From IMG/VR virus record IMGVR_UViG_3300009034_000014, positions 1 through 64,000 of that record: DNA of 64,000 bases; one strand, 5' to 3'. The number at the start of each line of letters is the position of its first letter. Within the stretch, counting starts at the first letter, position 1. A program made the position numbers and the translations under genes. Source of the DNA: a virus. Of this stretch, positions 5,520 through 40,847 are shown piece after piece. The notes under the pieces are model-generated. The model ran no database searches. It was not told the DNA's origin and saw only the letters and a list, made by a program, of their open reading frames with translations.

Positions 5520-5975
5520 TTAACAATTCCTCCACACGTAAGCCCACCACTGAGCGACGAGCACCGCATCCGCTTCGTCGTCTTCCACTTCCTGCCCGCG
5601 GAAGATACGCGCCAGCTTCTTGATCCCTTCCTTGTCCCCACGCTTCAGCATGTAGTACGCTTGCCAAGTTGCGGGATTGACCACAACGATCTCCATCCCG
5701 CGCAGCTTGGCCAAGATCTCCCAGAGGTACCGGCGGTAGAGCAGAGTCTTGATCCCTTTCGGGTTGCGGGGCTTGCGCTGGCCTTTGTGCGTAATGGTCG
5801 TCGCAATGAATTGATCCTCAATCACCAGAGTCTTGACGAACGAGTATTTCTTGAGCACGTTGAGGATCTTTTCGGTTTCGTCACCGTCCACCACGCCGCT
5901 GCGCTTTATGCAGCCTTCGTAGTACAATGCCCAGCCAGCGCGTTTCCCCGGGTCTATTGCAAGACAACCGCTCAT
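5520..5975 (-). CDS. RuvC-like Holliday junction resolvase (151 aa)
   Basis: RNase H-fold resolvase that would cut branched DNA during recombination or before packaging. Visible motifs are the first acidic residue in LAIDPGKRAGWAL (D8), the second in LVIEDQF (E53) and the terminal acidic cluster VEDDEADAVLVAQ (D133/D136). Length fits the family (150-180 aa). ATG 5975 overlaps the stop of the ATPase gene by ATGA, so it is co-translated with the recombination enzymes. Confidence 0.8.
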   Translation of the reverse strand: MSGCLAIDPGKRAGWALYYEGCIKRSGVVDGDETEKILNVLKKYSFVKTLVIEDQFIATTITHKGQRKPRNPKGIKTLLYRRYLWEILAKLRGMEIVVVNPATWQAYYMLKRGDKEGIKKLARIFRGQEVEDDEADAVLVAQWWAYVWRNC

Positions 5976-7168
5976 GGTCCAACGGCCAACCCATCCTCGA
6001 TCACAACTGCCACATCTCCGGTAGCGTCAATCCGCTCAAGCCACACCTGAGCATCGGCTTCGGCCGCCATCTTCCAGACCAGTTCCAGATTATCGGCGTC
6101 CAGATCGTTGCCGTTACGGATTAGCAAAACACTCAACTTGGGATTCATCGCTAATCCCATCGCTACCGATACACGGATACGCTCTGAAGTACTGGCCTGC
6201 TCGAATGGGATCCCCTGATAAGTGACACCATCGTCGTTCAAGCCAAGACCCTCGACAGGAAACCGCGCCCCTTTGATTTTCTTCTGCTTCAGCTCGTCGA
6301 ATAGTTGTATCTCTGCGGTGAACCCTTCTGCAGCGGCCTGCAGCGTTTCGAGTTCCTTCTTCTTCTCCATGTTCTCTTCTTTTAGCCGGATCCTCATGCT
6401 GATTTCATGGGCGTCCTTCATCCTCTTGACCAGCGGAGCTGGATCCTCGATAGGCTCCAGTTTACCGCCCAACTCCTTAAGATCTTGCCGCGCTTGTTCC
6501 AAATCCTTTGTCAGGGTTTCGACTCTTGACTTGGCGATGGTGTGCTCGCGTTTCGTTCGTTCCCGCTCGTTGTTGCTACGGTTGATCCTATCGATCTCGG
6601 CAGCTAGCTCATCGACGTTAGCTGGTTCACTCGGGGTATCGCTGAAGTCTCCCGCATCCAGCAGCAGCGCCTTGAGCCTCTTGATTTCCCGGTTGGTCTC
6701 GGTGCGCTGCGCGTACAGACTGGCCCGTTGGTTGTCTTGCTTGGCGAAGTCCAGCCCAGCGAGCTGCTTCAGAGTAGCGAGTTGTTTATCGGCCTCCATA
6801 CGGGAGAACTCCAGAGGATCGAAAGTCAACTCGCCGACTAGTGCATCAAGCACTTTCTGCGGTGAGCTATATTTCAGCCCCTCCCTGTTGCTCACCACGA
6901 GCGTTCCCCCGCCATTAGCGTTGATGACTCGCCTTACCACCAAGTCATCTGTTTCACAGACAATCGTTGCCTTATCCTCCCCTTCGCGGACGGGGCGGGC
7001 ACACTGCGCGGATTTCCCAGCAAAGGCATAAGCGATCGAATCCAAAGCGCTAGATTTTCCTTGGCCGTTCTTCCCCGCGATAACGACCACCGGACTACCG
7101 TCTGGTTCGATATGTATGGCCTTCAACTTCTTTACGTTCTCGGCTCTAAGACTTAATATTTTCGACAT
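5972..7168 (-). CDS. SbcC/RecF-like AAA ATPase (398 aa)
   Basis: SMC-superfamily ATPase. Walker A is GKNGQGKSS (about residues 32-40). A long coiled-coil arm follows (TNREIKRLKAL through LEQARQDLKEL). The C-terminal half carries the signature-like STSERIRVSVAMGLAMNP and LSVLLIRNGNDLD. The usual acidic Walker B pair is replaced by RNG, and there is no CxxC zinc hook; both features recur in this phage-specific subfamily. Probably works with the nuclease and annealing protein encoded upstream in the recombination module. The start ATG 7168 has GGGAG upstream. Confidence 0.75.
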   Translation of the reverse strand: MSKILSLRAENVKKLKAIHIEPDGSPVVVIAGKNGQGKSSALDSIAYAFAGKSAQCARPVREGEDKATIVCETDDLVVRRVINANGGGTLVVSNREGLKYSSPQKVLDALVGELTFDPLEFSRMEADKQLATLKQLAGLDFAKQDNQRASLYAQRTETNREIKRLKALLLDAGDFSDTPSEPANVDELAAEIDRINRSNNERERTKREHTIAKSRVETLTKDLEQARQDLKELGGKLEPIEDPAPLVKRMKDAHEISMRIRLKEENMEKKKELETLQAAAEGFTAEIQLFDELKQKKIKGARFPVEGLGLNDDGVTYQGIPFEQASTSERIRVSVAMGLAMNPKLSVLLIRNGNDLDADNLELVWKMAAEADAQVWLERIDATGDVAVVIEDGLAVGP

Positions 7169-7194
7169 CGCTTTCACTCCCATTTCCGACCGGA

Positions 7195-7545
7195 TCAGAT
7201 ATTCGCCTGCCGGTCTTCGTCCTTCAACGCACGGGCATGCACGCGCTCGTTCGTATCGCAGCGGAAGATCACCACCACGCCCTTGTCGAAGTCTTGCTCC
7301 TCGTAGCATTCGATCTCCCTGAACTCACGTTTTGAGCGCACGATGTCTGATAGCTTGTCGAGCCGTTCCTTCAGATCCTTGATCTTGGCGCGATGATCCT
7401 TCGCCGACTTCTTCGCCGCTTCCTCCGTCTCGCCCAGCTCCTCGAACAGCTTCCCGAGCGTTCCGGCGCGCTCCACCATCTCAGGGTCAGTCAATTTAAC
7501 CGGACACTCGTGCTTCACTTTCTTGGTCTGAGATTTGTTAGCCAT
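7195..7545 (-). CDS. conserved phage hypothetical protein (116 aa)
   Basis: MANKSQTKKVKHECPVKLTD, then a helical middle (LGKLFEELGETEEAAKKSA) and a coiled segment (KIKDLKERLDKLSDIVRS). The C-terminal part is strand-rich (KGVVVIFRCDTNERVHAR). It sits between the DnaC-like loader and the SbcC-like ATPase, a common place for this type of protein in phages. Its start overlaps the end of the upstream gene. Function unknown. Confidence 0.6.
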   Translation of the reverse strand: MANKSQTKKVKHECPVKLTDPEMVERAGTLGKLFEELGETEEAAKKSAKDHRAKIKDLKERLDKLSDIVRSKREFREIECYEEQDFDKGVVVIFRCDTNERVHARALKDEDRQANI

Positions 7546-7768
7546 CTTTCAGCGCCTCCCTTTCAAGTTTATCGTAGTCCTTCTTCCTGTCTTCTGATTC
7601 GCGGATCTTGATCACGAACTTTCTTCTCAGTCCGTCGATGAACGCTTCTTCTTCCTCCGGTGTTTTTCCCGTAGCCTTGGCGCCCATGCGCGCGGCCTTC
7701 TCGAACCCCTCCCACCAGGCCTTTCTCTTCTCCTCGTCTGTCGGTAACTTGAAATCGAAGTCGATCAC
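7538..7768 (-). CDS. hypothetical helical protein (76 aa)
   Basis: MIDFDFKLPTDEEKRKAWWE and EEEAFIDGLRRKFVIKIRES; charged and helical. The start codon is GTG 7768, overlapping the DnaC-like stop by GTGA, so translation is coupled to the loader. Possibly a replication accessory protein by position only. Confidence 0.55.
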   Translation of the reverse strand: MIDFDFKLPTDEEKRKAWWEGFEKAARMGAKATGKTPEEEEAFIDGLRRKFVIKIRESEDRKKDYDKLEREALKDG

Positions 7769-8412
7769 TCTGGAACCTTTCTGTCTCTTGGCGTACCTCT
7801 ATAGCTCTGCCAATCGAATACTACTATATCGCAACCGTCCTCTTTTAGCCGATCTATCAGTCGCTCGCTTACGTAGTCGCGTAGCTCTGTCATGCCCAGA
7901 TTGGACACCAGCAGACTGGATAGTTCAGAACCGTACCGTTCGTTGAGAATGTCGAAGATGATTATATGTTCGCTATCGGTCCCGTACTGGGTGCCAACTT
8001 CGTCCAGGATGAGCAGATCGGCCAGAGTATATTTCTCGTAGACTTCCTTTTCAGACTCTTCCGCGCCATGGTTCCAGGCGGAGCGAAAGTGTTGGATCAT
8101 TTTGATCATGGTGGATGCGACTACAATTTTCTTGGCCAGGATTAGCTCGCGGGTGATGCCAGCTACGAGATGGTTCTTGCCGGTGCCGGGTCGACCAGTG
8201 AAGATCGCATTTCTGGGTCTGGAATTGCCCACCGTCTCGGCTATTTCTCTAGCTGTGCCCAGCGCGTGTTTCTGCCCATCTGTTTTCGCCTCGTAGTTGT
8301 CCAGAGTGCGGTTGACAAAACGCTTGGCAATGCCAAAGTCCTTCATGGTCTGGTCGATGTTTTTGATTCGCATACCAGCGCTGAACTCTTCGGACTGCGA
8401 TAGTTTTTTCAT
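7765..8412 (-). CDS. DnaC-like helicase loader ATPase (215 aa)
   Basis: AAA+ ATPase of the DnaC/IstB group. Walker A is GRPGTGKNH (residues 73-81; GKNH is usual in DnaC relatives). Walker B is ADLLILDEVG, and a sensor-like LLVSNLGMTEL and arginine-rich RLIDRLKED follow. It would load the host replicative helicase at the phage origin. Directly downstream of, and coupled by ATGA to, the initiator gene, the same order as lambda O-P or phage-borne dnaC genes. Confidence 0.8.
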   Translation of the reverse strand: MKKLSQSEEFSAGMRIKNIDQTMKDFGIAKRFVNRTLDNYEAKTDGQKHALGTAREIAETVGNSRPRNAIFTGRPGTGKNHLVAGITRELILAKKIVVASTMIKMIQHFRSAWNHGAEESEKEVYEKYTLADLLILDEVGTQYGTDSEHIIIFDILNERYGSELSSLLVSNLGMTELRDYVSERLIDRLKEDGCDIVVFDWQSYRGTPRDRKVPE

Positions 8413-9242
8413 AACTTCCTACTCTTTCCGTAGTCGACTTTGGAGTAGTCTGGTTCTTTCGCTTTTGATTTTTTTCTTTCCTTCTCCCCCCACGAGGCTT
8501 TAAATCCCTGCCAGCCCATCATACAGCACTCTGCCAGCACTTCTTCCAACGTCCTGCCCGCTTTCTTGGCCTCTCGCTTTAGCCCTTCTATAGCCCTCTG
8601 TGTCAGTTTGGCATGTTTCCCCATCCGGAGTGTCACAAAGTCTTTTGCTGTTTGGTCTGAGATGCCTTCCTGAATCAGAATGGCGATCTGCTCTTTTTTG
8701 GTGAAATCGTTCCGTGTACGTTTTTTTTGTTGTGTACTATTCTTTCTTTTAAGATCTGGATCTGGATCCGGATCTGGATCCGGAAACGGAAACGGAGATG
8801 GAGACGGGGCATACCCGACGCATGCTGCTAGCATGCTCGTCGCGTGCTTATCGCATGCAGCGGGCATAGCGGACCTTTGATTTCCATAGTGTTTTTGTAG
8901 AGCAGCTTGCCGGGCACGTTCAGATCTTTCCTTATGTCCGACAATCCACCGCTGGTGTTCGTCCCAATCGTGGAATCTGAAATGAGGACACTCGCCATCC
9001 GGAGAATCCATCAACCGCAGGTCGACAAAGACCTTTAGCATGGCTTCCGCATCCCCTGGGTAGTCCACTTCGTCGGCCATGTCCAGAGCTGTCATGTTCT
9101 CTAAGATTCCATCCGTCCGCATCTCGGCAGCAAATGACCAGAGATCCTCAAGGGCAAGGACCCCATCGGCACCTAGCAGCTTTCGGAGCCGCTTTCGTTT
9201 TCGGTGTCTGCGCCATGTAGTGCTTATCCTGAAGTCTTCCAA
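8409..9242 (-). CDS. replication initiator, lambda O / DnaT-like (277 aa), contains the putative origin
   Basis: The N-terminal ~110 residues (FRISTTWRRHRKRKRLRKLL, then ADGVLALEDLWSFAAEM and FHDWDEHQRWI) form a winged-helix-like domain seen in phage replication proteins. The central linker is low complexity (PSPSPFPFPDPDPDPDPD). The C-terminal domain is helical (KKEQIAILIQEGISDQTAKD) and ends in a basic tail. The start is TTG 9242 with GAGG upstream; no in-frame ATG lies near. The DNA coding for the linker carries 11 bp iterons and GATC hexamers. Expression is probably controlled by leader B. Confidence 0.7.
   Translation of the reverse strand: MEDFRISTTWRRHRKRKRLRKLLGADGVLALEDLWSFAAEMRTDGILENMTALDMADEVDYPGDAEAMLKVFVDLRLMDSPDGECPHFRFHDWDEHQRWIVGHKERSERARQAALQKHYGNQRSAMPAACDKHATSMLAACVGYAPSPSPFPFPDPDPDPDPDLKRKNSTQQKKRTRNDFTKKEQIAILIQEGISDQTAKDFVTLRMGKHAKLTQRAIEGLKREAKKAGRTLEEVLAECCMMGWQGFKASWGEKERKKSKAKEPDYSKVDYGKSRKL
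8753..8806. repeat. nine tandem hexamers, GATC-rich
   Basis: GATCTG, GATCTG, GATCCG, GATCTG, GATCCG, GAAACG, GAAACG, GAGATG, GAGACG in an unbroken row, encoding the DP/FP/SP repeat of the initiator linker. Five units contain a Dam-type GATC. Confidence 0.85.
8809..8874. repeat. six 11 bp iterons (GCATGC core)
   Basis: Cores GCATAC, GCATGC, GCATGC, GCGTGC, GCATGC, GCATAG start every 11 bp from 8809, one helical turn apart and hence on the same face of the DNA. The spacers are not conserved. The translated protein (HATSMLAACVG) shows no matching amino-acid repeat. Confidence 0.8.
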
Positions 9243-9350
9243 TGCACTACCTCAAAAAAAACCCCATCCGCCAGTTGGCACGACGCCACAAGGCATCACC
9301 AACGAATGGGGCCACTTCTATCTGTAGTTGGTTTGTGACGACGTGCCATG
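9243..9350 (-). ncRNA. leader RNA B, attenuator-like, ahead of the initiator gene
   Basis: The minus-strand RNA can form a terminator: 9306-9311 with 9262-9267, 9299-9303 with 9274-9278, and 9292-9297 with 9282-9287 (its one non-Watson-Crick pair is G-U on this strand). Eight U follow (9261-9254), right before the ribosome site of the initiator gene. Competing pairings exist: the 5' end 9342-9348 with the loop 9276-9282 (7 bp), and 9327-9332 with 9298-9303 (6 bp). Confidence 0.55.
9254..9311 (-). terminator. intrinsic terminator in leader B
   Basis: Stem CCCCAT/ATGGGG with inner stem GTTGG/CCAAC and eight T on the minus strand. It stands between promoter P-B and the initiator start, so it would act as an attenuator rather than an operon end. 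Confidence 0.55.
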
Positions 9351-9356
9351 TTGCCT

Positions 9357-9385
9357 TTGGTACCACCCACCGAAACCGATGTCAA
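9357..9385 (-). promoter_or_regulatory. sigma70-like promoter P-B with A-tract
   Basis: Minus strand: TTGACA (9385-9380), 17 bp spacer, TACCAA (9362-9357), with a run of A just upstream resembling an UP element. The -35 is perfect; the -10 is weak. Predicted start near 9350. Confidence 0.5.
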
Positions 9386-9399
9386 GCACTTTTTTTTTC

Positions 9400-10833
9400 T
9401 CACTCCCCATCCCCAGCTAAGTCCGTTTCCCGCTTGTCCAGGATTCTTTCTAGCCGGGAGGCCTGCACCGCGGTCATGCCGTAAACATCCGGCATTGATT
9501 CGCCTTCGCCGAGCACGCGTTCCATCCACTTTCTTGCCTCCTCCTCGTCGTCCCAGCCGATGAGCCCGCTTATTCGCTCAAGGGTACTATCCACGATCTC
9601 CTTCGCTAGGTGCACCACCACGCTCTTGGATTTTTCTTGTTCCGGCGGCGCACTCTCTTCCATTGCCTCCGGTTTCGGCGCATGATCAGCGATCCAGTCC
9701 AGGAGCATGGCGTCAAGGTTGTCCAGCCGTTTCGCTGACTGGGATCGGAGCTGACCATCGTGGATATTCAGGCCCTCCTTCCACTCCGCGATTTGCTCCG
9801 GTGCTATGCCAGCATCGTCGGCGCGGCGCTCGATCTCCACAAGACGCTCCTTCTTTTTGCTGCCAGCGGCGGCGCCTGGCTCCAGCTCCGTCCGGGGAGC
9901 TGTCGCGGGGCTCTGTTCCTCACTCGGTCCCGTTTGCACGGTTTCCGGCATGGCACTCGGGGCAGAGGTGGGCTCTGGAGACGTAGGAACACTCTCAGCG
10001 GCCTTCGGTGTTTGTCCCCCTTTCCCCCGTAGCTTGTCCATGACCGAAGCCGTCCTGGAGCCTCTCTGCGTTTCCGGCGCATCTCCCACGGGTGGGAAGG
10101 CGACCTCGATCTTCACAGAACCTTCGCGAATGGCGTTGAACACACCGCGCAACTTCGAGAGCTCGACGGCCCCTATTTCCTCCGTGCTTTGGATCTCCAA
10201 CGAGGCAAGCAGACTTTCTGTGTCAACGCCGAGTTTATGGAAGGTGTCGAGCATGACGCCTCTGGAATACGCGATGGCCTTCGCGTCCCCGAAAGCCACC
10301 TTCCGAGCCTTTGCGTATACCTCATCCACAATGGAGCGGCTAACGATCACGAAGACAACGTTCCTGTAAGAGATCATGGCCGCGGCATTTCCTGTCATCG
10401 TGATCATGTCGTCAGAGTAGCGGTTGCCACTCCGATCCGTGATTCGACGCCGGACTTCTCGCTGGAATAGGACGTTCTTCTGCATGTCCCACGCAGTCGC
10501 TTGTGCCGTGACGTATTTTTTACCCTCTTCGACAATCCTCGTCTGGCACCGAATGTTGCCCCAACTTGACATAGCGATCTCGGCGAGTCTGACGCTGGCC
10601 CCCTCGATGAGCTTGCCACCTCGCTTGTAGGCGTAGAAGCATGATTCCGCTACTTCTTTGTTCAGGCAGGCCAGGTTTTCCATGTCCTGTTTTACCTGCT
10701 CGATGTTTCTGGGGTAGGCCTTGGCTGTGGCCACCTGCATGTCGAACTCGCTGCGCGAAATCTGGGCAATGACTCCGGCGTCTGCGGCTGGGATGATCTC
10801 GATCTCCGGTCCATTGGTTTGTTCTTCTGTCAT
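9400..10833 (-). CDS. probable phage recombinase / single-strand annealing protein (477 aa)
   Basis: The N-terminal ~250 residues (FDMQVATAKAYPRNIEQVKQ, CFYAYKRGGKLIEGASVRLA, DMITMTGNAAAMISYRNVVF) match a phage family found next to YqaJ-type exonucleases. The position suggests a RecT/Erf-like annealing role, but I infer this from context and cannot name the fold. The C-terminal half is a variable Pro/Ser/Glu linker (SVPTSPEPTSAPSAMPETV) followed by helical segments. ATG 10833 follows AGAGGAG. Downstream of the nuclease in the same transcript. Confidence 0.65.
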   Translation of the reverse strand: MTEEQTNGPEIEIIPAADAGVIAQISRSEFDMQVATAKAYPRNIEQVKQDMENLACLNKEVAESCFYAYKRGGKLIEGASVRLAEIAMSSWGNIRCQTRIVEEGKKYVTAQATAWDMQKNVLFQREVRRRITDRSGNRYSDDMITMTGNAAAMISYRNVVFVIVSRSIVDEVYAKARKVAFGDAKAIAYSRGVMLDTFHKLGVDTESLLASLEIQSTEEIGAVELSKLRGVFNAIREGSVKIEVAFPPVGDAPETQRGSRTASVMDKLRGKGGQTPKAAESVPTSPEPTSAPSAMPETVQTGPSEEQSPATAPRTELEPGAAAGSKKKERLVEIERRADDAGIAPEQIAEWKEGLNIHDGQLRSQSAKRLDNLDAMLLDWIADHAPKPEAMEESAPPEQEKSKSVVVHLAKEIVDSTLERISGLIGWDDEEEARKWMERVLGEGESMPDVYGMTAVQASRLERILDKRETDLAGDGE

Positions 10834-10846
10834 GATTATTTCTCCT

Positions 10847-11845
10847 CTATTTGAAATAGGGTTTGAAAGGCCTAGAACCAGGCGAAACTTTCCTGAATTT
10901 TTCCAATGCCTCTGGCTTATTCTGACGGAACCATTCGGCCATTCCATTGGCATCCCATGACTCGCGGTCCTTGCTTAGCCGCCAGAGTATCTTTCCCCAG
11001 TGTCCGGAAACGCCGGAGGAATCACCGATGAATTCCTTGATCGTGTTCTCCTGAAAACGCGTCACCTCCTCCATACTCTTGATCGCGTCCCTGGCTTCCT
11101 GCAATTTTACGGCAGCAACATCTATCTCTGAATTTGATTGCCGTAAGTTTTCGGTAGAATGCCTTGGGTGGGTCTTTGCGAGATAAGCGGCGAAATCCTT
11201 GGACCCGTCGATGGGCGGAGGCTCCTGCTTTATCACGTACTCCCAGAATTTCTCGGTCTTGGCCAGCAGCAGATCGAACATCTCGGGATTGAAACTCAGG
11301 CGGTAGACCCAGAGGTCCCGGCCGATAAGCGGACCTACGAGCCCCTCCTGTTTTTCCAGTGCGCCCATCTGCCATTGCACCTGTGGGAGGTAGTATTCTG
11401 GAACTCCATCGGAAACTTCCAGTGGGCTTATCCAGTCGCGGGCAGTGAATGGCCCCGGGCTCTTGACCTCGGCCACGCACACGGCTTCCGACGCTTTCTC
11501 GCGTAACTCCGAGAAATCCCGAGGCAACTCGCCGTCGAACGCCAGTCCATCTGGCGTAGCTAAGACCAGTTCATGTTTCGGGTTCTGGAAAGTGATCGCT
11601 TTCTTCCCAGTGTTATGAAATATCTTGGTTTCTGTCCGCCGGCCCATCCAATTCAGGAGTGCGTCTTCTAGTTCATTCCCGCGCTCCTGATCGACCGTAG
11701 CCTCCTCGTCTTCCTCTGGCTCCTGAACTTTTTCCTCCCAGACCCTGATCGGGCTCTTCCACGGACTGAGCCCGCAAATAGCTGGGATGTCGCTCGCGGA
11801 TACGCCGCGACGGCGGAATTCTTTCTGCTCCAACGTCAATGACAT
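10847..11845 (-). CDS. YqaJ-family viral exonuclease (332 aa)
   Basis: PD-(D/E)XK nuclease of the YqaJ/lambda-exo type. GVSASDIPAICGLSPWKSPI is the usual N-terminal signature; E56 in ERGNELEDALL, ATPDGLAF and CVAEVKSPG form the catalytic set, and PEYYLPQVQWQMGAL is the conserved QVQWQM helix. It resects double-strand ends for the annealing protein just downstream. ATG 11845 has GGAGG at ideal spacing. First gene behind promoter P-A and leader A. Confidence 0.85.
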   Translation of the reverse strand: MSLTLEQKEFRRRGVSASDIPAICGLSPWKSPIRVWEEKVQEPEEDEEATVDQERGNELEDALLNWMGRRTETKIFHNTGKKAITFQNPKHELVLATPDGLAFDGELPRDFSELREKASEAVCVAEVKSPGPFTARDWISPLEVSDGVPEYYLPQVQWQMGALEKQEGLVGPLIGRDLWVYRLSFNPEMFDLLLAKTEKFWEYVIKQEPPPIDGSKDFAAYLAKTHPRHSTENLRQSNSEIDVAAVKLQEARDAIKSMEEVTRFQENTIKEFIGDSSGVSGHWGKILWRLSKDRESWDANGMAEWFRQNKPEALEKFRKVSPGSRPFKPYFK

Positions 11846-38552: not shown

Positions 38553-40847
38553 CTATGCTGTGACCGACTCAAAAATTCCTCTTTTCGACATGACGATTAT
38601 GAAACGTTCAATCGTGTCCGCGAGCCAGAGTGATAGCTGCGCGTACGCATCTCCTGCTGCCGTTGTGACCGGGGTGTTGATCTCCGAATCCACCTTGATT
38701 ATGGCGGCTTCGTCTAACGACCTACCCTGGAGGGCGCGCTTTCTCCACTCGGGCAGGAAGTAAGCTTTCAGCGTTGTGAGCGCCTTCTTCCACTCGATTG
38801 GATCGTTGATTGCGTAGATGATCCAATCGAAGTTCTCACGCAACACGTTCTCTGTATGGCACATGTACTCTCGCTGATGCTTCCACTTCCACTCCGGGCT
38901 CAGGTTCGCGGTGCGGTCTCCCCAGATCACGAAGTTGCCCTTCACCTTCTTGATGATCGCTACGCCCAGCGGGTTCAGTATCTCGTGGTCGAGAATGGCC
39001 TCGCCCGTCGGGATCTTCAGGATCGCTGGCAAGATCTGATCTTCGCCCGCCTCTGCTTTGTGGTATCCGCCCCAGTCATTTGCGGTACGGGCTTCGCGCC
39101 CGTGGATCATCCCCGTGTTGGATACCAGCTTCAGCCTGCCCTGGCCCTGGCCCTCTGGATCAGTCACGTAAGCATAGGACGGAAAAGCGTAGACCGAGAA
39201 CTCGCTACGGCCGATCGTGTCGTTCACGTAAGTCTGAACCGCGTCTTCTGTAACCGTAGCGCTCGGGATCTCAACGCGGTACTGATGGTTCTTGGCATCC
39301 GCGTACGCGATACCCGCCTTCTGCACCGCTGTCGACGTAACGCCCGGCGTGGCCATCTTGACCAGTCCGAGGTTGCGGCCGAGAATGCGGTCGAATGGCG
39401 AACTGCCTAAGTTCCAAGCCTGCTGGTTGTAGTCCGCATCCGTGAGATCCGCGATACCGTCCTTTCCTTCCTCCATCTCCAGCGGAGCCTGGAGCATGAA
39501 GAAGTCGTCAATGGCACCGGCTGTGGTCAGATCCGAGCCCGGCGCTGCGGTCACTGTCTTGTGATCGTTGTCCACGATACGGTATTTCTCACGCGGAGAG
39601 TTCACCTTGTCTGGCCAGACGTAGCCGTTGATCAAGGCGTCTTTGACGAACGGGCGATAGACCAGCGTTGCCACGTCGCTGACCTCCCAAGCGGTGCTTC
39701 CGGCTGTGAGAGTGAACGGCGGAGACCAGTCGTTGTTCGGCGTATACAGCACCCCGACCGTACCATCCGCGCCCAACGATCCAAACTTGTCGCTGACGAC
39801 GGTGAATGTCGTGGGTGCAGTGAACGTGAGAGTGATGGTCTGATCTACCATATCGTCGGTGGTGGTACCCAGCGCGCAGGTTCCGTTACCATCGCCCACT
39901 ACATCCGGATCGAAGTCGTTGATGTAACAGGTTAGCACCGTGGCGGTCACGGCCGAGATTTTCCCGTAGTAGTTCGCGGGCCGATCATCGGCGGTGAGCG
40001 CTCCGGACAGGAGGTCTTCTACTACTACCTCGTCGTTGTTGCCATCGTTGTTTATGATGTTTTCCCAGAATCGAGAGTCTGTCGGTTCAACGGAAAGATT
40101 CGTCCATGAATTAACCAGCGCGCCATCCACGTAAACGAAGATCCCGAACTCCGTGTCCGGCTTCTCCTCGCCGTCCCGCACTTCCACGGAAAGCGCCTTG
40201 CTCTCGTTCTCCAGATAGACGTAAAAGCGCTTGTTCGCGTAGGTGGGGTCCGCTGCCGTCCAGTCGTCTTTCATGGTGGAATTGGAAGCCACGGTGATCA
40301 CGCCGAGAGCTGTATTGCTCACGATGGGGTACAGTGTGTTTGCGACGGCGTCGAGCCTGATCCACCCACCCTTCCATTGATCCTTCGTGAAGTCCGTGGT
40401 GTTCTCGGTATCAAGGGTTGTGTTCGTGACCTTGGTATCCGATGTCACATCGTCGGTGTACTTCCGCTGCTTGCCGCCCCATCGACCGCCGTTCTTGGCC
40501 TTGATGGTTCCCATCGCTGCGCGGGGAACGCGGCGGCTGTACAGATTCATGACGGCCTGTTCCTCGTTCCCGTCCGTGATGCGCGTGAGCAGGAGCCCAC
40601 CACGGCCCTGTGCCAGGCCGTAGTAATCGAGACACGCATCCGGAAGCAGGCTGTCCGGGAGGTAGCTCCCGCACTTCTTCAGAAACCGCGTTCGGTTCTG
40701 AGCTACAATCAACTCACCGACTTCGCCCTTCTCCAGAATCCCGGCGTAGCCAGCCCAGCCCAGTGCACCAGGTTCGATCTGTGGTTGACCTTCCAACTCC
40801 TCAATAACGGTTCCGGCTCCTCTCACCGGTCCTATTCTGCGTACCAT
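38553..40847 (-). CDS. tail sheath protein (764 aa)
   Basis: MVRRIGPVRGAGTVIEELEG, the long polymorphic insert (about residues 100-450) and the conserved C-terminal part (HEILNPLGVAIIKKVKGNFV, IWGDRTANLSPEWKWKHQRE, SLWLADTIERFIIVMSKR) identify a contractile sheath. The size is large for a sheath because of extra exposed beta domains. ATG 40847 follows GAGG. The gene is followed by tube and chaperone genes as expected. Confidence 0.8.
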   Translation of the reverse strand: MVRRIGPVRGAGTVIEELEGQPQIEPGALGWAGYAGILEKGEVGELIVAQNRTRFLKKCGSYLPDSLLPDACLDYYGLAQGRGGLLLTRITDGNEEQAVMNLYSRRVPRAAMGTIKAKNGGRWGGKQRKYTDDVTSDTKVTNTTLDTENTTDFTKDQWKGGWIRLDAVANTLYPIVSNTALGVITVASNSTMKDDWTAADPTYANKRFYVYLENESKALSVEVRDGEEKPDTEFGIFVYVDGALVNSWTNLSVEPTDSRFWENIINNDGNNDEVVVEDLLSGALTADDRPANYYGKISAVTATVLTCYINDFDPDVVGDGNGTCALGTTTDDMVDQTITLTFTAPTTFTVVSDKFGSLGADGTVGVLYTPNNDWSPPFTLTAGSTAWEVSDVATLVYRPFVKDALINGYVWPDKVNSPREKYRIVDNDHKTVTAAPGSDLTTAGAIDDFFMLQAPLEMEEGKDGIADLTDADYNQQAWNLGSSPFDRILGRNLGLVKMATPGVTSTAVQKAGIAYADAKNHQYRVEIPSATVTEDAVQTYVNDTIGRSEFSVYAFPSYAYVTDPEGQGQGRLKLVSNTGMIHGREARTANDWGGYHKAEAGEDQILPAILKIPTGEAILDHEILNPLGVAIIKKVKGNFVIWGDRTANLSPEWKWKHQREYMCHTENVLRENFDWIIYAINDPIEWKKALTTLKAYFLPEWRKRALQGRSLDEAAIIKVDSEINTPVTTAAGDAYAQLSLWLADTIERFIIVMSKRGIFESVTA

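Follow-up and report, generated by a model that had tools for sequence, protein, structure and literature searches.

The window analysed here is a stretch of 64,000 nucleotides, positions 1 to 64,000 of an IMG/VR virus record of 83,438 bases. A gene on its minus strand (8409..9242), a strand that the initial annotation left unsaid, starts with TTG downstream of a GAGG motif and encodes a protein of 277 aa. It had been called a phage replication initiator, and its PHROG matches agree: phrog_678, 6451 and 12556 at the C-terminal part, phrog_9474 and 3926 at the N-terminal part. The protein consists of an N-terminal DNA-binding domain, a linker encoded by the proposed origin and an O-like C-terminal domain. 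The N-terminal winged-helix domain, the presumed iteron binder, covers residues 1-122 approximately (8877..9242, minus strand), with the phrog_9474 match (E 2.6e-8) spanning residues 5-125. The C-terminal domain, of about residues 165-269 (8436..8750, minus strand), is presumed to contact the loader or the helicase; it matches phrog_678 (E 6.9e-16) and, in tblastn, the O-like proteins of phages. The linker between them, of about residues 123-164, is predicted to be disordered (pLDDT about 50-58), and its DNA holds the iterons and hexamers described below.

We modelled the N-terminal domain with AlphaFold (AF2), at a pLDDT of 91.6. Structurally it comes closest to the N-terminal domains (NTDs) of staphylococcal RepA_N plasmid initiators (4pql, 4pt7, 5kbj and 4pta), in weak matches with Z of 7.2-6.3 (below 8) and Foldseek E > 0.04; the DnaD NTD follows at Z 5.4. 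Foldseek with the full-length model returned weak winged-helix matches only. The model is suggestive of a resemblance to RepA_N/DnaD winged-helix domains. At the level of sequence, none of 31 members matches RepA_N (PF06970) at E<=1; weak matches point to Phage_rep_org_N (9 members) and Lin1244_N (5 members).

The adjoining gene (7765..8412, minus strand) overlaps the initiator stop and encodes a DnaC-like AAA+ helicase loader, as initially proposed (phrog_50, E 1.6e-55; Pfam IstB_IS21, E 5.7e-13). A DnaC-like loader also follows the initiator in loci L202 and L204; the same place is taken by a DnaB helicase in L213, a primase-helicase in L196 and L208, and a primase in L207. Around the initiator extends a recombination cluster (5520-11845, minus strand), with a RuvC-like resolvase (5520-5975), an SbcC/RecF-like ATPase (5972-7309) and a RecE/YqaJ exonuclease (10847-11845), all on the minus strand. 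Just ahead of the initiator ribosome-binding site, a strong G+C-rich hairpin followed by U8 lies at 9260-9313 (minus strand; MFE -34.8 kcal/mol, z -2.25). This leader hairpin is terminator-like and could be a terminator or an attenuator.

Inside the initiator gene, at 8809..8869, lies an array of six GCATGC-like palindromic cores. On the plus strand they read GCATAC (8809), GCATGC (8820), GCATGC (8831), GCGTGC (8842), GCATGC (8853) and GCATAG (8864): three are perfect, those at 8809 and 8842 carry one mismatch each and the last one two. The pitch is exactly 11 bp throughout, so that all six positions given by the initial annotation are borne out. Scored against six GCATGC in an 11-bp ladder, position 8809 reaches 32/36; the runner-up at this spacing in the 64-kb window attains 21, and with spacings of 7-10 and 12-20 the score never exceeds 23 anywhere in it. 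Synonymous recoding of the local peptide attains 32 with P ~0.0025, a value that understates the effect because the repeat has already left its mark on the peptide itself (A-C, H-A, x-M-x). Together with the excess of lag 11 in relatives (see below), these results support the proposal, made earlier from the out-of-frame spacing, that the repeats are a DNA element under selection as DNA. A search of Rfam gave no match. GC skew, suggested as a check, does not change sign at the array, but is uninformative here because it is negative throughout and the window covers only 64 of the record's 83 kb.

The array is flanked by a tract of nine 6-bp units (8753..8806, minus strand), which read, in order of position, GATCTG, GATCTG, GATCCG, GATCTG, GATCCG, GAAACG, GAAACG, GAGATG and GAGACG. 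On the coding strand this amounts to TCC or TTC every 6 bp, encoding a PSPSPFPFPDPDPDPDPD linker, with a bias for T before CC and a conserved junction to the array, ATGCCCC-N-TCTCC. Past the hexamers comes a tract of 79% A+T (8720..8752, minus strand), A-rich on the coding strand and T-rich on the plus strand, a candidate DNA unwinding element. The coding strand is thus ordered from iterons to hexamers to A-rich tract. Both the hexamers and the T-rich tract had been noticed before; the hexamers, however, are not a mere neighbour of the iterons but part of a conserved module. In the window, the 45 bp past the hexamer tract lie at the 98th percentile of the gene for A+T, whereas in relatives the A+T content there is raised only modestly (top quartile in 14/29). 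We weighed whether a hairpin past the tract is a constant component and discarded the idea: a stem of at least 7 bp occurs in 18/48 loci, beats synonymous recoding in 13/48 and is absent from the window. Separately, a minority of loci, L125, L148, L008 and L298 for example, have a stem of 9-10 bp directly past the tract.

We scanned 2.9 million viral contigs (IMG/VR) for the pattern GCATGC-N5-GCRTGC-N5-GCATGC. It occurs at 31 loci, and in 17 of them the array lies at a winged-helix initiator ORF. A control pattern with a 10-bp pitch found eight loci, one at such an ORF; with a 12-bp pitch there were 39 loci, mostly in-frame protein repeats of the PGMPPGMP type, and 0/39 at an initiator ORF. 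As the initiator profile was built partly from the 11-bp loci, two tests without the iteron pattern were added.

In one, 62 initiator loci were chosen by protein homology alone and lags of 7 to 17 were compared with a synonymous-recoding null. Lag 11 stands out, with z>2 in 22/62 loci and z>3 in 9/62, against at most 9/62 and 1/62, respectively, for any other lag; these relatives are a non-random sample of phage initiators, because the homology profile was seeded with the proteins of iteron-bearing loci. Within this set, 14 of 22 close relatives exceed the null at lag 11. In the other test, the viral contigs were scanned for the tract junction, AATGCCCCNTCTCCNNCTCC, a pattern that contains no ladder. 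It returned 39 distinct loci, 36 of them inside initiator ORFs, and the cores upstream of the junction are spaced mainly by 11, 22, 33, 44 and 55 bp. GCA stands in 11-bp register with the junction at a frequency of 0.249, against 0.114 expected (sd 0.016) and a maximum of 0.171 over 1000 recodings.

At the DNA level no close relative of the window turned up; in the distant relatives in which the spacing was tested, it survives while codons, and even cores, vary, the point that the initial annotation had wanted an alignment to check. Lag 11 is absent from many distant initiators (DUF1376 and Firmicutes types). No relative was confirmed in a single-protein scan of the viral contigs with the window protein, and a Pfam search for DUF1376 in eight genomes gave no match.

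These results bear on whether the array might be mainly an operator, through which the initiator or another phage regulator controls transcription of the loader and downstream genes, the origin lying elsewhere. Palindromic cores of 6 bp are typical of repressor sites, autoregulation frequently accompanies iteron binding, and the terminator-like leader hairpin suggests a regulated gene. Yet the array sits some 400 bp inside the gene, away from a promoter, and a search for a promoter-like site within it found none. It is moreover followed by the phased tract, whose junction falls in initiator genes at nearly every locus where it was found. We regard an operator as unlikely.

Other repeats were encountered in the course of these scans. 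A genome-wide search for GCATGC ladders gave 108 matches, nearly all of them chance or ordinary coding DNA and set aside as such; five lie at a profile-positive ORF, and only L125 and L136 were accepted after inspection. GCATGC cores at 11 bp also occur outside initiators, at L010:875, L011:3022, L028:6321 and L029:1722; the four arrays have their surroundings in common, namely similar flanks and short ORFs on large phage contigs. In L193 and L194 the winged-helix domain is followed by HNH-like sequence, and both iterons and tract are missing. Among Firmicutes and other initiators, L224, L225, L239, L245 and L272 have other low-complexity DNA at the array's place, either of the AGAGTAGACAAG type (RVDKTRVDK) or purine-rich (REEKRRED), with a lag of 10 or 15, not 11. 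The O-like initiator of Acinetobacter phage TRS1 (L227) has repeats with 83% match at lag 22, that of Aggregatibacter phage S1249 (L229) in-frame repeats of 21 bp. In L217 (Rac-SA53 ydaU), GATACAGATACAGATC hexamers come after the DUF1376 domain of the Rac prophage initiator gene; the Rac prophage has an active origin, oriJ (PMC3945230).

The tract is, as far as codon choice and unit length tell, constrained as DNA and not as protein. In 29 loci with a P-x-P-x linker, T is the last base of 145 of the 175 codons that precede proline, against 49.8 expected from the same genes (locus-level binomial P 3.7e-9). The bias spans S, T, A, I, N, D, F and V, and serine is encoded by TCT in 98/107 cases. 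Units measure 5 bp in L203 and L213 and 4 bp in L195, with peptides that are not similarly repetitive. In L205, L207 and L210 the array lies beyond the end of the initiator ORF: the iterons, a CCTTAT-type tract and the AT-rich DNA (ATATATATAATATATTATAAT in L207) are all non-coding there and stand between the initiator stop and the following gene, which in L207 encodes a primase. Past the stop, L205 and L207 have a frame that is still similar to the coding version, and the stop may be recent; in L210 this frame is lost.

The same observations speak to a neutral origin of the repeats, by tandem duplication and slippage in a disordered linker. Such a process would fit the low pLDDT of the linker and the near identity of hexamers within one locus. 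It is at odds with a pitch of 11 bp, which is out of frame, and with cores that are conserved while the spacers between them are not. Nor does it fit the T-ending codons, found across different amino acids, the tracts of period 4 or 5 with non-repetitive peptides, or the arrays that persist without coding. We consider this explanation largely refuted and highly improbable.

The cores themselves change from phage to phage: they are GCAATGC in L208, AACGACCGTT in L211 and L212, and ACCGAATCGGT in L201, each time with a pitch of 11 bp. The pitch is conserved while cores and codons change. When the consensus 11-mer was tested for palindromicity by permutation, no overall significance emerged (median P 0.23; 3/30 below 0.05), so that we restrict the term to cores in which palindromy is visible, GCATGC/GCAATGC and AACGxxCGTT. 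GCATGC is a common restriction and methylation palindrome, and host DnaA or IHF assist many origins; a host factor (a nucleoid protein, a DNA methyltransferase or a restriction-related mark) might accordingly bind the sites in place of the phage initiator. A core that varies at constant pitch and position is better explained by a co-evolving phage binder, however, and GCATGC is under-represented in the window (12 found, 21 expected). We regard a host factor as very improbable here.

Similar arrays are also found behind a different N-terminal family (DUF1376, PF07120), in L007, L024 and L030. Among cultured relatives, Pseudomonas phage AH02 has an architecture of this type. After the array come C-terminal domains of several kinds: Phg_2220_C in L012, a sub-threshold match to DnaT in L022 and the O-like domain in the window. 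As the array is paired with varied families on both sides, the proposed origin coincides with a joint at which initiators exchange domains.

Altogether, the locus is very probably a theta-type phage origin, set within the coding DNA for the interdomain linker of its own initiator. This reading starts from the observed anatomy, recurrence, DNA-level constraint, domain-joint position and replication-gene neighbourhood; from these we infer core binding, melting, loader recruitment and the role of the tract. The winged-helix N-terminal domain would bind the GCATGC palindromes; at a pitch of 11 bp, all bound copies would lie on one face of the helix and form a cooperative filament or looped complex, which would strain and melt the AT-rich DNA next to it. 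Between the iterons and this AT-rich DNA, the phased pyrimidine tract would probably be exposed as a single strand and serve as a landing strip, where the helicase would be placed by the C-terminal domain together with the DnaC-like loader. Lambda and pSK41 are precedents for binding inside the gene, and lambda also for opening and helicase recruitment.

A more tentative proposal, which we hold to be possible but somewhat less probable than its contrary, is that the phased pyrimidine tract is an unrecognised single-strand loading element of phage origins and forms, with iterons of conserved pitch and variable core, a portable cassette. The TCC units, which recur every 4-6 bp in fixed register to the last iteron, would be recognised by the AAA+ loader or by the C-terminus of the initiator, and the cassette would occupy the point of domain exchange in phage initiators. 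In function the tract would correspond to the DnaA-trio of oriC, where DnaA boxes, which are double-strand sites, are followed by a short phased trio tract leading into the unwinding region. The DnaA-trio has a period of 3 nt and is bound by the AAA+ protein DnaA, whereas the phage tract has a period of 4-6 bp.

The layout recurs in many unrelated phages and seems to be undescribed as a class: a search of the open-access literature found no description of an 11-bp ladder with a phased tract, while in-gene origins are known from lambda (PMC7466680, PMC5043065), SPP1 (PMC6316719), TP901-1 (PMC8965321), pSK41 (PMC5703833) and KIRK. It supplies a rule by which candidate origins can be located in many uncultivated phages, namely an 11-bp palindrome ladder that ends in ATGCCCC-N-TCTCC within a winged-helix initiator gene. 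It also explains why phage replication proteins have PSPSPS and DPDPDP linkers, puzzling until now: these arise as by-products of a DNA function. Finally, with the tract one can test whether a phased single-strand element is used by phage loaders in the manner of DnaA.

In the window and its relatives, multiple sites are phased with the helix, a general feature of iteron origins. The origin of lambda lies inside its initiator gene as well (PMC7466680, PMC5043065), and shares with the window iterons and an A-rich coding strand within that gene and a loader gene next to it; an AT-rich region is present in both, yet in the window hexamers separate it from the iterons. The differences concern the family. 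BLAST of the window initiator against lambda O found no similarity. The N-terminus of the lambda O type is phrog_277/2365, while that of the window protein matches phrog_9474/3926 and not phrog_277; phrog_678 is matched by the N-terminal half of lambda O but by the C-terminal half of the window protein. Lambda has 18-bp iterons 20-24 bp apart (annotated at 39034, 39054, 39078 and 39101), a P-type loader and no phased hexamer tract, unlike the 6-7 bp palindromic cores at 11-bp pitch, the hexamers and the DnaC-like loader found here.

By their published descriptions, other phages too have an origin of direct repeats inside the initiator gene: SPP1, with oriL in gene 38, an AT-rich DUE and a separate loader (PMC6316719), and the lactococcal phages TP901-1 and Tuc2009, in their replisome organizers (PMC8965321). 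For these three, the open-access literature searched describes no GCATGC/11-bp array or TCC tract. In the staphylococcal RepA_N plasmid pSK41, the winged-helix NTD of Rep binds four boxes in the centre of its own gene; the linker encoded by this ori is dispensable for replication and is followed by a distinct C-terminal domain (PMC5703833). The three-part initiator, with the ori between N- and C-terminal domains, is the same as here. In pPR9, a phage-derived hybrid, the N-terminal domain and the origin have been exchanged as one unit for phage-type sequence (PMC5703833); in the phages studied here, too, N-terminal domain and origin occur with different C-terminal domains. The iterons of RepA_N origins, in most characterised cases, are semi-palindromes that converge on poly-A (PMC7145576), as opposed to palindromes of 6-7 bp at 11-bp pitch with a TCC tract after them. 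The label 'lambda-type', given to the locus initially, holds for the working principle and not for the family, as N-terminal domain, iterons and loader differ. The best reading is that of an origin that works like lambda ori, served by an initiator with a RepA_N/DnaD-like N-terminus, in an architecture closest to that of pSK41 rep.
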